The notes beneath the pieces are model-generated. The model had not been told where the DNA came from. It saw only the letters and a list, made by a program, of their open reading frames with translations, and did no database searches. The translations under genes and the position numbers were made by a program. From NCBI GenBank assembly GCA_937864935.1, contig CALMDN010000328.1, positions 1-9,304 on the forward strand: a DNA stretch of 9,304 nucleotides, written 5' to 3'. How positions within the stretch are numbered: the first letter of the stretch is position 1; each line of letters opens with the position of its first letter. The stretch comes from an uncultured Bacteroidales bacterium. Its GTDB lineage: Bacteria; Bacteroidota; Bacteroidia; Bacteroidales; Lentimicrobiaceae. Shown here piece by piece: positions 570 through 6,882 of this stretch.

Positions 570-680
570 TTTACACAAAGTATTGTATATCATTCACTAT
601 TGTCCGGTAAACTTAAAATTGCTTAGTAAGATTCTTCGCTTCACTTTGTTACGCTCAGAATGACAAGCTGTTGGGTACAG

Positions 681-725
681 AATAGGGGGCTTGGTTGCGG
701 CTTTGCCGCAATCAAGCCCCCTATT
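681..725. repeat. 21-bp central hairpin
   Basis: The arms 681-701 and 705-725 pair over 21 bp with one G-T/A mismatch and a 3-base TTT loop. The stem contains AATAGGGGGCTTG on one side and CAAGCCCCCTATT on the other. Short flanking segments (TGGGT at 672-676 and ACCCA at 732-736) extend the symmetry. No T tract follows on either strand, so it is not a classical terminator. It is the centre of the 588-865 element. Confidence 0.85.
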
Positions 726-792
726 CATTGAACCCACGTAAATCAAAGTCATTCTGAGCTTGTCTTCTTGTTGGCACAAGCAAACAAGCAGG

Positions 793-818
793 CCTGCCTG
801 TATGTACAGGCAGACAGG
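793..818. repeat. CTGCCTG palindromic repeat copy
   Basis: This copy starts CCTGCCTG and ends CAGGCAGACAGG, with a TATGTA centre that extends the stem. It sits in the 64-base segment (760-823) that interrupts the right arm of the 588-865 element. It shares the preceding ACAAGCAGG with the copy at 953-979, and both are preceded at a distance by GAGCTTGTC, so the true repeat unit may be longer than the palindrome. Confidence 0.85.
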
Positions 819-952
819 CGTTAGCGAAGAATCTCATAATTTTTACCGGACAACAGTGAAAGATAATAGTAAAATGATCAGCAAACAGTTATCAGGTAAC
901 AGCAACCAGCAACCGAACAGAGCGAGCTTGTCAGCTTGTGTATACAAGCAGG

Positions 953-3210: not shown

Positions 3211-3234
3211 GATCTGGATTTAGAAAGGTAAAAG

Positions 3235-3254
3235 CCTGCCTGTCGGCAGACAGG
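3235..3254. repeat. CTGCCTG palindromic repeat between ridA and dpp11
   Basis: A compact copy, CCTGCCTGTCGGCAGACAGG, with CTGCC pairing to GGCAG and shifted pairing between CCTGTC-type ends. It lies in the 89-base gap between ridA and dpp11, 24 bases upstream of the dpp11 start codon. If the two genes share a transcript, this hairpin would sit in the intercistronic RNA and could affect processing or translation; that role is only inferred. Confidence 0.8.
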
Positions 3255-3733: not shown

Positions 3734-3741
3734 CAAAATTA
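3734..3741 (-). promoter_or_regulatory. Possible -7 box for ridA (TAATTTTG)
   Basis: On the minus strand TAATTTTG matches the Bacteroidota -7 consensus TAnnTTTG. It overlaps the last codons of pabC and lies 56 bases upstream of the ridA start. No TTG-type -33 element is visible at the expected 17-23 base spacing, so this is a weak call; it would give ridA its own promoter. Confidence 0.3.
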
Positions 3742-4389
3742 GTACTTTTTTCTTAGCCGCAGACCAGAGCTGTCAGTGCATTCAATGGATTCCTCCGGAA
3801 TGTTGCCGGTGCTGATACCATTTCCATCTTCCAGCCCACGCATGGCATTGATCAGGCGTACTTCGCTGAATGACCACAGGTCTGCGGCCCCGATTTCCGA
3901 TGCCCTGATCTTGCCTTGTGAAAGCAGCCTGGCTCTGCAGGTGCCTTCGAGCAAAGGAGTGGCCGGGGTCAGCCATTCATGCCCGTTCCATAGGATAACA
4001 TTGGCCATGGAAGTGTCGGTGATCCGCCCGTTTTTTACAACAAGCACATCGTCGCAATGGCCGCGAAGGGCAAATAGCGCGTCAAGCTGGTTCCGATCGG
4101 TATATTTGTGATGGTAATCAATGGTGTTGTCTTCCACAAGCTGAAGACTTTCAATCTCTTTCAGCACATAAGGCGTGAACAGAATTTTCCAATGATGCCG
4201 GTCGTAATCCAGTCTGCACCGGAAGATTCCCCTGCGATATCCGGGTGGGACGTTGATGATTTCCTCCAGATCAAACTCCGGAGCTTTTCCGAACAGTGTT
4301 CTGTATGATGATTCGAGCCGCTGCCGGTGCCATGGCAGGTTCCCGGCAATGCCGTTTCGGATACAGAGGGTTTCAAACAACCGGTACAT
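3739..4389 (-). CDS. pabC: 4-amino-4-deoxychorismate lyase, class IV PLP enzyme
   Basis: This 216-residue fold-type IV PLP enzyme would cleave aminodeoxychorismate to p-aminobenzoate and pyruvate. It starts [13 protein letters not shown], a usual start for this family. Lys95 in YHHKYTDR is the expected Schiff-base lysine. [14 protein letters not shown] (residues 120-133) is the cofactor-binding strand with Asp125 where many relatives have Glu, and [16 protein letters not shown] (141-156) is the phosphate-site segment. The protein is short compared with branched-chain aminotransferases (about 300 residues), which also fits PabC. Its ATG overlaps the end of pabB by 17 nt, implying translational coupling and the shared pathway. 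The family alone does not separate lyase from aminotransferase; the pabB context decides it. Confidence 0.85.
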
Positions 4390-5350
4390 ACACTTTATCT
4401 ATCATTTCACGGTATTCATTCTCCGGATTACTGTTAACCGTGATGCCGCCACCACTTCGGAAAAACAATCCATTGTCGCTTTTTTCAATAAACCGGATCA
4501 TTACTGCCGAATCGAGGCACTGGCCGTCGAACAATCCGAAAACCCCGGTATAGTATCCCCTGTCACTTCCTTCTGCTTCCCGGATGATTTCAACGGTTCT
4601 CTTCTTCGGTGCGCCGGAAACCGAACCAGCGGGCAGCAGGGTCTGCATCAGGCTTCCGATGCTGGTTTCCCATCCCGGCAACAATTGTCCTGAGATCTCA
4701 GAACTGGCCTGCAGGAGGTGCTTCTGATTGGTTTTAATCTCCTCGAGGTACCTGAACCGCTCTACCCTTACGCGATCGGCCACCATGCTGAGGTCATTGC
4801 GGATAAGGTCAACAATGGTGTTGTGTTCTGCAGCCTCTTTCGGATCGTTCTGCAGTTTTCCGGCAGCATCGGGTATCCCGGCATCTATGGTGCCCTTCAT
4901 CGGAAATGACCGGATGGTGTTGTCGCTGATGCGTACAAAACATTCCGGTGAAAAGACCACAAATTCATCCCTGAACAGAAGGCGGTAAGGCGCCTTGCCC
5001 GAAAGGAAGAGCTCCGGAAGGCTGCGGTTGACCTCCACGGCAGTGGCAAACGTAAGGTTTAGCAGGTAGGAATCACCATATTCGAGACCTTTTTTAACAA
5101 TATCAAAAGCCTTTCGATAAACTTTCAGATCAACAGGATGCCGCATGAAGGTGAGCAGATGCGGGTTTTCAGGTATCGGAAAGTTTGCGTTGGTATTGCC
5201 CCTGAGGTTAAAAAAAATCTGCTGCGAGGCTGCAGAAGCTAAAGGCAGAACCATCGGTCTGATCCCCTCAAAATCAATCACAAACAGGAAAGGAATCCTT
5301 TGAGATCCAAACTTGTTCATGGTTTCGAAAACGGGATGATCCGGCAGCAT
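4373..5350 (-). CDS. pabB: Aminodeoxychorismate synthase component I
   Basis: This 325-residue chorismate-binding enzyme adds ammonia (from PabA) to chorismate to form 4-amino-4-deoxychorismate, the first committed step toward p-aminobenzoate. It holds only the catalytic domain: the roughly 130-residue N-terminal part of E. coli PabB is largely missing, as is usual for the short type in Bacteroidota. Motifs in order are GDSYLLNLTF (92-101), FSPECFVRI (133-141), SFPMKGTI (148-155), EAAEHNTIVDLIRNDLSMVA (172-191), AGSVSGAPKKRTVEII (241-256), YYTGVFG (266-272) and RSGGGITVNSNPENEYREM (298-316). Lys152 in the MKGT motif marks PabB; anthranilate synthase TrpE has Ala there. It is first in a minus-strand run pabB-pabC-ridA and divergent from pabA. 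Confidence 0.92.
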   Translation of the reverse strand: MLPDHPVFETMNKFGSQRIPFLFVIDFEGIRPMVLPLASAASQQIFFNLRGNTNANFPIPENPHLLTFMRHPVDLKVYRKAFDIVKKGLEYGDSYLLNLTFATAVEVNRSLPELFLSGKAPYRLLFRDEFVVFSPECFVRISDNTIRSFPMKGTIDAGIPDAAGKLQNDPKEAAEHNTIVDLIRNDLSMVADRVRVERFRYLEEIKTNQKHLLQASSEISGQLLPGWETSIGSLMQTLLPAGSVSGAPKKRTVEIIREAEGSDRGYYTGVFGLFDGQCLDSAVMIRFIEKSDNGLFFRSGGGITVNSNPENEYREMIDKVYVPVV

Positions 5351-5473
5351 TTTTTCAGTTTAAGGGATAGCGAAAATACAAAAATTTGAACCGAAGCTCC
5401 GCCCTGCGAATCCCTTATCTTTGTTGCAGAAAATCCAGCCATAAAACGGCTTGTTCCGGCGAACGGAAAACCC
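5351..5473. promoter_or_regulatory. Divergent pabB/pabA promoter region
   Basis: These 123 bases separate the start codons of two genes that need each other, so they must hold both promoters. The clearest box is TATCTTTG on the plus strand (5416-5423). For the minus strand only a weak TATTTTCG (about 5371-5378) resembles a -7 box. TTCCG-GCGAA-CGGAA (5454-5468) forms a 5-bp stem just before the pabA start codon. No operator symmetry stands out. Confidence 0.5.
5416..5423 (+). promoter_or_regulatory. Likely -7 box for pabA (TATCTTTG)
   Basis: TATCTTTG is a full match to the Bacteroidota -7 consensus TAnnTTTG and lies 50 bases before the pabA start codon. The nearest upstream TTTG (5385-5388) is 27 bases away, longer than the usual -33/-7 spacing, so the -33 element is poor or absent. 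Confidence 0.45.
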
Positions 5474-6043
5474 ATGAACATACTGCTGATCGACAATTAC
5501 GATTCCTTCACTTTCAACCTGCTTCAACTGTTGCACGAAGCCGGGGCCGGCAAGGTGAAGGTAATGAAGAATGATGAGGCCATTGTGGATGCAGCCATGA
5601 CTGCTGATGCAGTGGTGATTTCACCCGGGCCGGGTCTTCCCGGGCAGGCCGGGCAAACCCTGGAGCTGATCCGGACGTTCGGGGGCAGTAAACGCATCCT
5701 GGGCGTGTGCCTGGGGCTGCAGGCCATCGCGGAAGCATATGGTGGAAAGCTCTTTCATACCGGGGAAATCCTCCATGGTGAAAAGACGTTGGTAATGCCG
5801 GAAGCGCCGTTTCATCCGATTTTTAAAGGAATGCAGCATGGATTCGAAGCCGGGTTGTACCATAGCTGGGCAGTGCAGAAAGAGGGCCTGCCGGAAATGC
5901 TCCGCATCACTGCCACCGACAGTCGGGGGGTAATTATGGGCCTCTGCCACCGGGATTATGATGTCTGTGGAGTGCAGTTTCATCCCGAATCCATTATGAC
6001 ACCGATGGGGGAAGAGATGATGAGAAACTGGCTGAGAAGTTAA
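5474..6043 (+). CDS. pabA: Aminodeoxychorismate synthase component II (glutamine amidotransferase)
   Basis: This 189-residue class I glutaminase supplies ammonia to PabB. It begins MNILLIDNYDSFTFNL, the standard PabA/TrpG start, which fixes the start codon. The oxyanion strand SPGPGLP is at residues 50-56, the nucleophile elbow GVCLGLQ carries Cys79, YHSWAV is at 130-135, and FHPES gives His170 and Glu172, completing the triad. The length is normal for a stand-alone subunit. PabA and TrpG cannot be told apart by sequence alone, and one protein often serves both pathways; the neighbouring divergent pabB-pabC supports PabA. It is transcribed away from pabB rather than in the same operon. Confidence 0.93.
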   Translation: MNILLIDNYDSFTFNLLQLLHEAGAGKVKVMKNDEAIVDAAMTADAVVISPGPGLPGQAGQTLELIRTFGGSKRILGVCLGLQAIAEAYGGKLFHTGEILHGEKTLVMPEAPFHPIFKGMQHGFEAGLYHSWAVQKEGLPEMLRITATDSRGVIMGLCHRDYDVCGVQFHPESIMTPMGEEMMRNWLRS

Positions 6044-6268: not shown

Positions 6269-6315
6269 CTGCCTGCTATGACGGCAGTCAGCCTACCTTA
6301 CTGTGTCAAGAAGAC
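6269..6315. repeat. Degenerate CTGCCTG repeat pair
   Basis: The first unit reads CCTGCCTGCTATGACGGCAG and keeps the CTGCC/GGCAG pairing. The second begins CCTACCTTACTGTGTCA and continues AGAAGACAAAT where intact copies have GGCAGACAGG, so its right arm has decayed. The CCTACCTTACTG start is shared with the copy at 953-979, suggesting a subfamily. Confidence 0.6.
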
Positions 6316-6386
6316 AAATCCGGCTCCGGGCTAAAAGCTCAAAGTTTACCCTGCGAAACGAAGAGGAGGTTGTGCTGTCTGCTCAT

Positions 6387-6405
6387 ACTGTGTCAGGCAG
6401 ACAGG
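6387..6405. repeat. Partial CTGCCTG repeat (right half)
   Basis: ACTGTGTCAGGCAGACAGG matches the central part and right arm of the repeat family; the left CCTGCCTG arm is missing. It may be a remnant of a deleted copy. Confidence 0.65.
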
Positions 6406-6531: not shown

Positions 6532-6882
6532 TCAGAATCCGAATAGACCAATTTTAAATCCTACACTTTTCGGTTTGGTAATCTGTGTATCCCTCAAAGG
6601 AACAGGGGTCGGCAGAATCTCAAGATAAACACAGTTAAGCATACGATCGGGAATCGACATAATGCTGCTCACTTTGCTGTAGGGAGTTCCCTGCCTGAGG
6701 ATGGTTACATATTGCTGTAGAACATTGTCTTTACCTTCGGCATGTATCACAATGCCACCGCTGTCGCCGTAATAAGATATGGTACCTACAATTCCCAAAG
6801 CCTTGCCCTTTTTCAGGGCATAGAAGCGAAAGCCGGAATGTCTTTCGTCGAGGCTGATTACTATTTTAATTGCAGTTCTCAT
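6532..6882 (-). CDS. Acylphosphatase-like small protein, probably catalytically impaired
   Basis: This 116-residue protein, with no signal peptide, aligns by eye over its first 75 residues with the acylphosphatase fold: strand RTAIKIVIS, loop HSGFRFYALKKGKALGIVG (15-33), then SGGIVIHAEGKDNVLQQYVTILRQG (41-65), as in the family pattern GVGFR...A..LGL.GWVRN..DG.V...AEG. Arg19 may be the phosphate-binding Arg. The catalytic Asn of the GWVRN motif appears to be Tyr37 (GTISYY), so hydrolysis of acyl phosphates is doubtful. A C-terminal tail of about 40 residues (LEILPTPVPLRDTQ..., ending FKIGLFGF) is not part of the usual 90-residue enzyme. It stands alone between two large gaps, so context gives no role. 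The fold call is tentative and a homologue search would settle it. Confidence 0.6.
   Translation of the reverse strand: MRTAIKIVISLDERHSGFRFYALKKGKALGIVGTISYYGDSGGIVIHAEGKDNVLQQYVTILRQGTPYSKVSSIMSIPDRMLNCVYLEILPTPVPLRDTQITKPKSVGFKIGLFGF

Follow-up and report, generated by a model that had tools for sequence, protein, structure and literature searches.

The window and the borders of the element

The window, i.e., the whole stretch of 9,304 nucleotides analysed here, corresponds to contig C328; the MAG that it comes from is fragmented (3.0 Mb in 589 contigs, 72.5% complete). Among the 80 relatives listed for the S46 peptidase that it encodes, the best five are Bacteroidetes or Bacteroidales MAGs, one of them being named Lentimicrobium. 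Positions 3739–6043 carry genes for a class IV aminotransferase, a chorismate-binding enzyme and a class I glutamine amidotransferase (Pfam names), which we take to be a trio as in aminobenzoate synthesis.

The feature under study is a MITE copy of 264 bp (595–858) delimited by paired 17-bp ends, namely the left terminal inverted repeat CACTATTGTCCGGTAAA (595–611, + strand) and the right one CACTGTTGTCCGGTAAA (842–858, − strand). These ends enclose the left inner arm (unit A without cassette; 629–664, + strand), a central hairpin that covaries between copies (680–726) and the right inner arm (748–834, − strand), in which unit A (748–759 plus 820–834) is interrupted by a cassette at 760–819; the two inner arms were compared among copies. 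The cassette is made of two palindromes on the + strand: D (760–793), which is dispersed in the source MAG and adjoins C in two copies of genome G011 (L198 and L202), and C (794–819; (C)CTGCCTGTATGTACAGGCAGACAG(G)), which has 29 matches in the source MAG, window included.

An earlier note, made from the letters of the window, had described positions 588–865 as a compound, nested and MITE-like element with three levels of symmetry, and all three qualifiers hold. The 24-bp terminal inverted repeats do match at 22 of 24 positions (arms 588–611 and 842–865, 24 nt, 92% complementary), the second inverted pair is present (629–664 against 748–759 plus 820–834) and so is the central hairpin (680–701 against 705–726, 22 nt, 95% complementary). 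The outer borders had to be moved inwards: the ends of the family are CACTRTTGTCCGGTWAA, as set by the flanking repeats of sister copies, and the window copy therefore spans 595–858, the outer seven bases on each side (588–594 and 859–865) being flank that pairs all the same. Likewise, the inserted segment, first given as 64 bases (760–823), is indeed an insert, of 60 bases (760–819), because the empty arm of sister copies measures 29 nt and the window arm 89 nt.

For the RNA folding that the note had proposed, bases 570–885 give −143.6 kcal/mol, whereas 100 shuffles average −72.6 (sd 4.4; z −16.3); as DNA, bases 595–858 give −77.7, and 200 shuffles average −29.7 (sd 3.5; z −13.6). The three-level symmetry is thus predicted to fold far better than shuffled sequence, beyond chance, both as RNA and as DNA. 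Three putative ORFs (60, 63 and 83 aa) overlap the element and are without support as genes; with its 264 bp, its 17-bp ends and no supported ORF, the element is short, bounded by terminal inverted repeats and devoid of a transposase gene, as a MITE should be.

Copies, target sites and insertion sequences with the same ends

Sixty genomes (the source MAG and 59 relatives) were searched, of which 17 have matches to the whole element and 12 to its end. From loci with matches in the source MAG and related genomes, we collected 58 distinct paired-end elements, i.e., 55 MITEs (53–412 bp) and three insertion sequences, which are not a random sample, because the loci were chosen for having matches. 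Each end had to match at 13 or more of its 17 positions, with one end at 15 and a sum of 29, over a length of 45–420, or 1300–1450 for the three insertion-sequence loci. Rows with the same element and flank were removed, a few orthologous insertions remaining (L293 and L315 share flanks), and the collection leaves out copies cut by contig ends; its 412-bp member, L314, is an insertion-sequence remnant with a doubtful right end. In the source MAG, 12 loci (counted by eye, window included) have a recognisable end, 8 of them being truncated at a contig end, besides two further degenerate loci (C64 and C169, also by eye), and the full copy closest to the window element, on C93, is identical to it at 179 of 200 aligned bases. 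The element is therefore multi-copy, at unrelated sites, as expected of a MITE, and the borders of its copies fall at the inner 17 bp of the terminal inverted repeats, so that neither of the two outcomes named beforehand as contrary to the reading (a single copy, mismatched borders) occurred.

A 9-bp direct repeat, conserved at 8 or more of its positions, flanks 40 of the 58 elements (27 exactly), whereas 1000 shufflings of the flank pairs give a mean of 1.23 elements and a maximum of 6; a 10-bp repeat (at least 9/10) flanks three further elements (shuffled maximum 1). The remaining 15 have neither, and include the window copy, where three of nine positions match, as well as two of the three full insertion sequences, L195 (3/9) and L196 (1/9). 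The target duplications to which the earlier note had pointed are thus a property of the family and are missing from the window copy, which suggests that this copy was probably rearranged after insertion or that its repeat decayed. The missing repeat lowers the claim of an unaltered insertion for this copy and leaves its assignment to the family intact. A search for an empty site at the window locus found that bases 1–1100 align with 80 relatives only at 1047–1100, which is the end of a gene. The target sites are A/T-rich and symmetric, with A in 80% at position 1 and T in 80% at position 9 (40 sites, both directions).

Three elements found outside the source MAG, L194, L195 and L196 (1400, 1389 and 1413 bp), combine the same 17-bp ends with a 399-aa ORF, so that the ends of the MITEs are common to an autonomous element. 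In all three, this ORF is an IS4-family transposase according to NCBIfam NF033592 (202–222 bits for a cut-off of 115, in a protein family so large that at least 7970 of 8000 candidates scored pass) and to Pfam (DUF4372 and DDE_Tnp_1). The YREK motif, recognised by its usual spacing, is present in these ORFs as YKLRWQIELLFKQLK or YKIRWQIELLFKQLK. By their features, i.e., size (1389–1413 bp), ends (CACTGTTGT), YREK and 9-bp repeats (in one of the three, L194, and in most MITEs), these insertion sequences would belong to subgroup IS4Sa, for which the published table gives 1150–1750 bp, ends CA------T, YREK and direct repeats of 8–10 bp (De Palmenaer et al. 2008, PMC2266710); the window element differs from IS4Sa in having no transposase gene.

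The terminal core of the element was expected to identify the transposase family, and it does lead to IS4, even though no such gene was found in the source MAG. When 12 genomes were searched for the transposase, some match was obtained in ten: matches of at least 69% over most of the protein in G011, G016, G018 and G029, a broken copy with stops in G001 (76% and 69% in pieces) and a match of 22 residues at a contig end in G002, among others. Since related transposases were found neither in the source MAG (G000, 72.5% complete) nor in G009 (95% complete, with MITEs), the MITEs occur without a detected helper in these two genomes. IS4-like proteins of 30–32% identity from the same genus have other ends, where ends are definable, in a comparison that leaves out the ~40%-identical transposases G013:C7 and G018:C50.

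The window MITE has no detected similarity to the three insertion sequences beyond ~26 nt at the ends; its right terminal repeat (842–858) and adjoining bases have 26 nt (96%) in common with the left end of L194. Resemblance of a MITE body to the insertion sequences beyond the ends is limited to L314, and a descent of the MITE body from them is without support, because the similarity stops at the ends (L314 excepted). Moreover, unrelated bodies are found on the same 17-bp ends (L293, L312, L315, L323; L210, L318, L319, L321, L322), and the smallest MITE, of 53 bp (L042:6405–6457, G000:C453), has little besides its ends and a perfect 9/9 flanking repeat, which suggests that the ends alone would suffice for mobility. 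This copy lies 91 bases before a tRNA-Val gene at 6548–6623. The IS4 family moves by cut and paste and, judging from the sequences, an IS4-family transposase would bind the 17-bp ends and move the element in this way.

Pairing between the arms and the palindromes nested in them

The central segment was obtained from 28 of the 55 MITEs and not from the other 27. Across these 28 distinct copies, the inner arm and the central stem covary: 95.2% of the cells are paired, against 91.1% after shuffling, and 24 cells show a double change, against 6.2, none of the 500 shuffles reaching this or the level of pairing, while 7 of 27 pairs have changed on both sides, against 3.6 (2/500 shuffles). Control structures slid along the alignment pair in 32–55% of cells. 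This covariation is support rather than proof, because the shuffles ignore relatedness. Departures from pairing are of the G-U type in 16 cells and of the A-C type in 14 and, these small numbers being equally frequent, pairing is probably kept at the DNA level.

Two routes would maintain pairing on DNA: either the DNA hairpin itself matters, or one arm is mechanically corrected from the other by template switching in a hairpin that has no function. To the latter we give appreciable, if less than even, weight, as it accounts for departures without strand bias and for pairs changed on both sides, but 8 of 18 central pairs vary one-sidedly only and the inner arms often differ by 9 nt, so that correction must be incomplete. 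It is compatible with the explanation that we favour, namely a mobile MITE holding palindromes in its arm, and the data do not separate it from selection on a DNA hairpin.

The empty inner arm (unit A) is TGAGATTCTTCGCTAACGCTCAGAATGAC. Seventy arms were scored, of which nine (unrelated bodies) and one deletion junction (L202 L) were dropped, leaving 60 arms from 32 MITEs. A unit B of 28–54 nt follows GATT in at least 23 of the 60 (by eye), a lower bound because L200 L and L203 R carry B and are unscored. C or D+C stands at GAG^CG in four (the right arms of the window copy, L198, L202 and L201), and in three others (L208 L, L295 L, L301 L) a CCCGC hairpin takes the place of some of the arm. When both arms were scored (28 MITEs), B is found in both in four cases, in one in 14 and in none in 10, the four being counted by eye (the automatic tally is three, as it split L305 L wrongly). 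L206 and L208, from one genome, share 197 of 203 aligned bases; what sets them apart is a B of 36 nt in one arm and a small hairpin in the other.

The presence of these guest palindromes follows the genome. C has no match in G001, against its 29 in G000, while palindrome E has 36 sites in G001 and two in G000, and B has 56 matches in G001 (no more than one mismatch in 22), against one in G000, although 15 of these 56 are TTAGCTTCGCTGAGCTC and another 10 belong to a single array (TTACCTTCGGTGATCCC), both of which may represent different repeats; the reversed patterns of C, E and B have no match at all. Among 25 distinct contexts of B, six are enclosed by a terminal-repeat pair and 19 are not, at least one of the latter (L415) looking MITE-like all the same. 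Unit A, tried as an independent repeat, found no support: none of its 15 matches in G001 is farther than 250 bp from a match to the ends (12 belong to paired elements, three adjoin a single recognised end; by eye) and all seven in G000 sit in MITE copies. Further C-like palindromes are found in the window at 517–567 (a head-to-tail pair), 952–977, 1008–1032, 3234–3254, 6291–6316 and 6378–6403, and B-like and E palindromes that lie outside the studied MITEs are clustered at G001:C1:646846–664247.

C was also considered as a possible REP moved by a RAYT. It stands on both sides of a weak Y1_Tnp ORF (G000:C370; 25 bits, cut-off 23), but interrupts another repeat there, one that flanks Y1_Tnp genes of G001 too, without C. 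That C is the repeat proper to this gene was not borne out, the repeat of G001 having no C and the C of G000 lying inside the repeat. As a separate observation, Y1_Tnp-type genes adjoin a palindromic repeat of their own at L332 (G000:C370) and at L346 (G001:C1:547617 region), the latter with two tandem 185-aa copies.

Alternatively, the palindromes might never have been inserted: recombination or replication slippage between similar hairpins would have passed them from one MITE copy to another or removed them. The arms of related copies are indeed close enough in sequence for recombination, L202 resembles a deletion derivative, by short homology, of an L201-type copy, and the cassettes show no insertion signature, because their flanking letters fit no duplication or one of at most 2 bp. 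We nevertheless hold this explanation to be unlikely: B, C and E occur outside these MITEs too, their presence follows the genome, and wherever both arms hold B (four MITEs of four) the inner palindromes are not the same, a sign of separate events. If the palindromes were inserted, they would enter the hairpin by a mobility of their own or via a Y1-type enzyme. More tentatively, and with less confidence than doubt, we propose that the MITE arms act as a docking hairpin, the fixed points GATT^CTTC and GAG^CG taking up the short palindromes that circulate in a genome and the compound travelling on IS4-type ends; if true, this would imply a hairpin-targeted mobility of elements of ~24–39 bp.

Genomic context and closest known systems

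According to a simple ORF call, 36 of the 37 copies with enough flank are intergenic, the flanking genes being convergent in three cases, divergent in 15, codirectional in 18 and unknown in one. It is very improbable that the element is a structured RNA, or a terminator working in both directions, which the host keeps and which spreads only incidentally. The very stable fold, the covariation and the intergenic positions would fit, but there is no excess of copies between convergent genes, Rfam gives no match anywhere in the window at gathering scores and the departures from pairing, in small numbers, do not indicate that one RNA strand is under selection, while both the 9-bp repeats and the occurrence of unrelated bodies between the same ends speak for transposition.

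Altogether, positions 595–858 very probably correspond to a multi-copy MITE with IS4-type ends, likely moved in trans, the right arm of which holds a 60-bp pair of palindromes that was probably inserted. Its weak points are a window copy without flanking repeat or helper and the direction, gain or loss, of the cassette changes. The core is of an ordinary kind, an IS4-type MITE, even if the family is new as far as the literature was searched, while the site-specific nesting is the less ordinary, unusual part; within that literature, as far as the texts were available, we found no IS4Sa MITE and no MITE arms hosting palindromes. The finding gives a little-studied group of Bacteroidales a mobile family with defined ends, a target site and a likely helper. 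It is also a natural archive of short palindromes appearing at set points along a hairpin, so that the way in which REP-like repeats spread becomes testable by sequence comparison.

Among known systems, MIC231 designates the non-autonomous cassettes of IS231 (IS4 family) in Bacillus, which, like the window MITE, are gene-poor and have the ends of an IS4-family insertion sequence, but are larger and belong to another subgroup and host; a palindromic body such as that of the window MITE was not met in the accessible parts of their descriptions. BrickBuilt of Porphyromonas gingivalis (PMC4596501) is likewise a Bacteroidales MITE, intergenic and multi-copy, but its body is a 23-nt tandem repeat, in contrast to the nested palindromes of the window MITE. 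For the nesting itself, the closest cases are REPs inserted within palindromes (PMC3733652) and SDR5 inserted in HIP1 of cyanobacteria (PMC4390886), which, as in the window, are short repeats placed precisely inside other palindromes. B, C, D and E are likened to REPs by this placement, and not by a REP tag or enzyme. As described there, the hosts of REPs and SDR5 are plain palindromes, whereas the host in the window is a MITE with terminal repeats and fixed positions in its arms.
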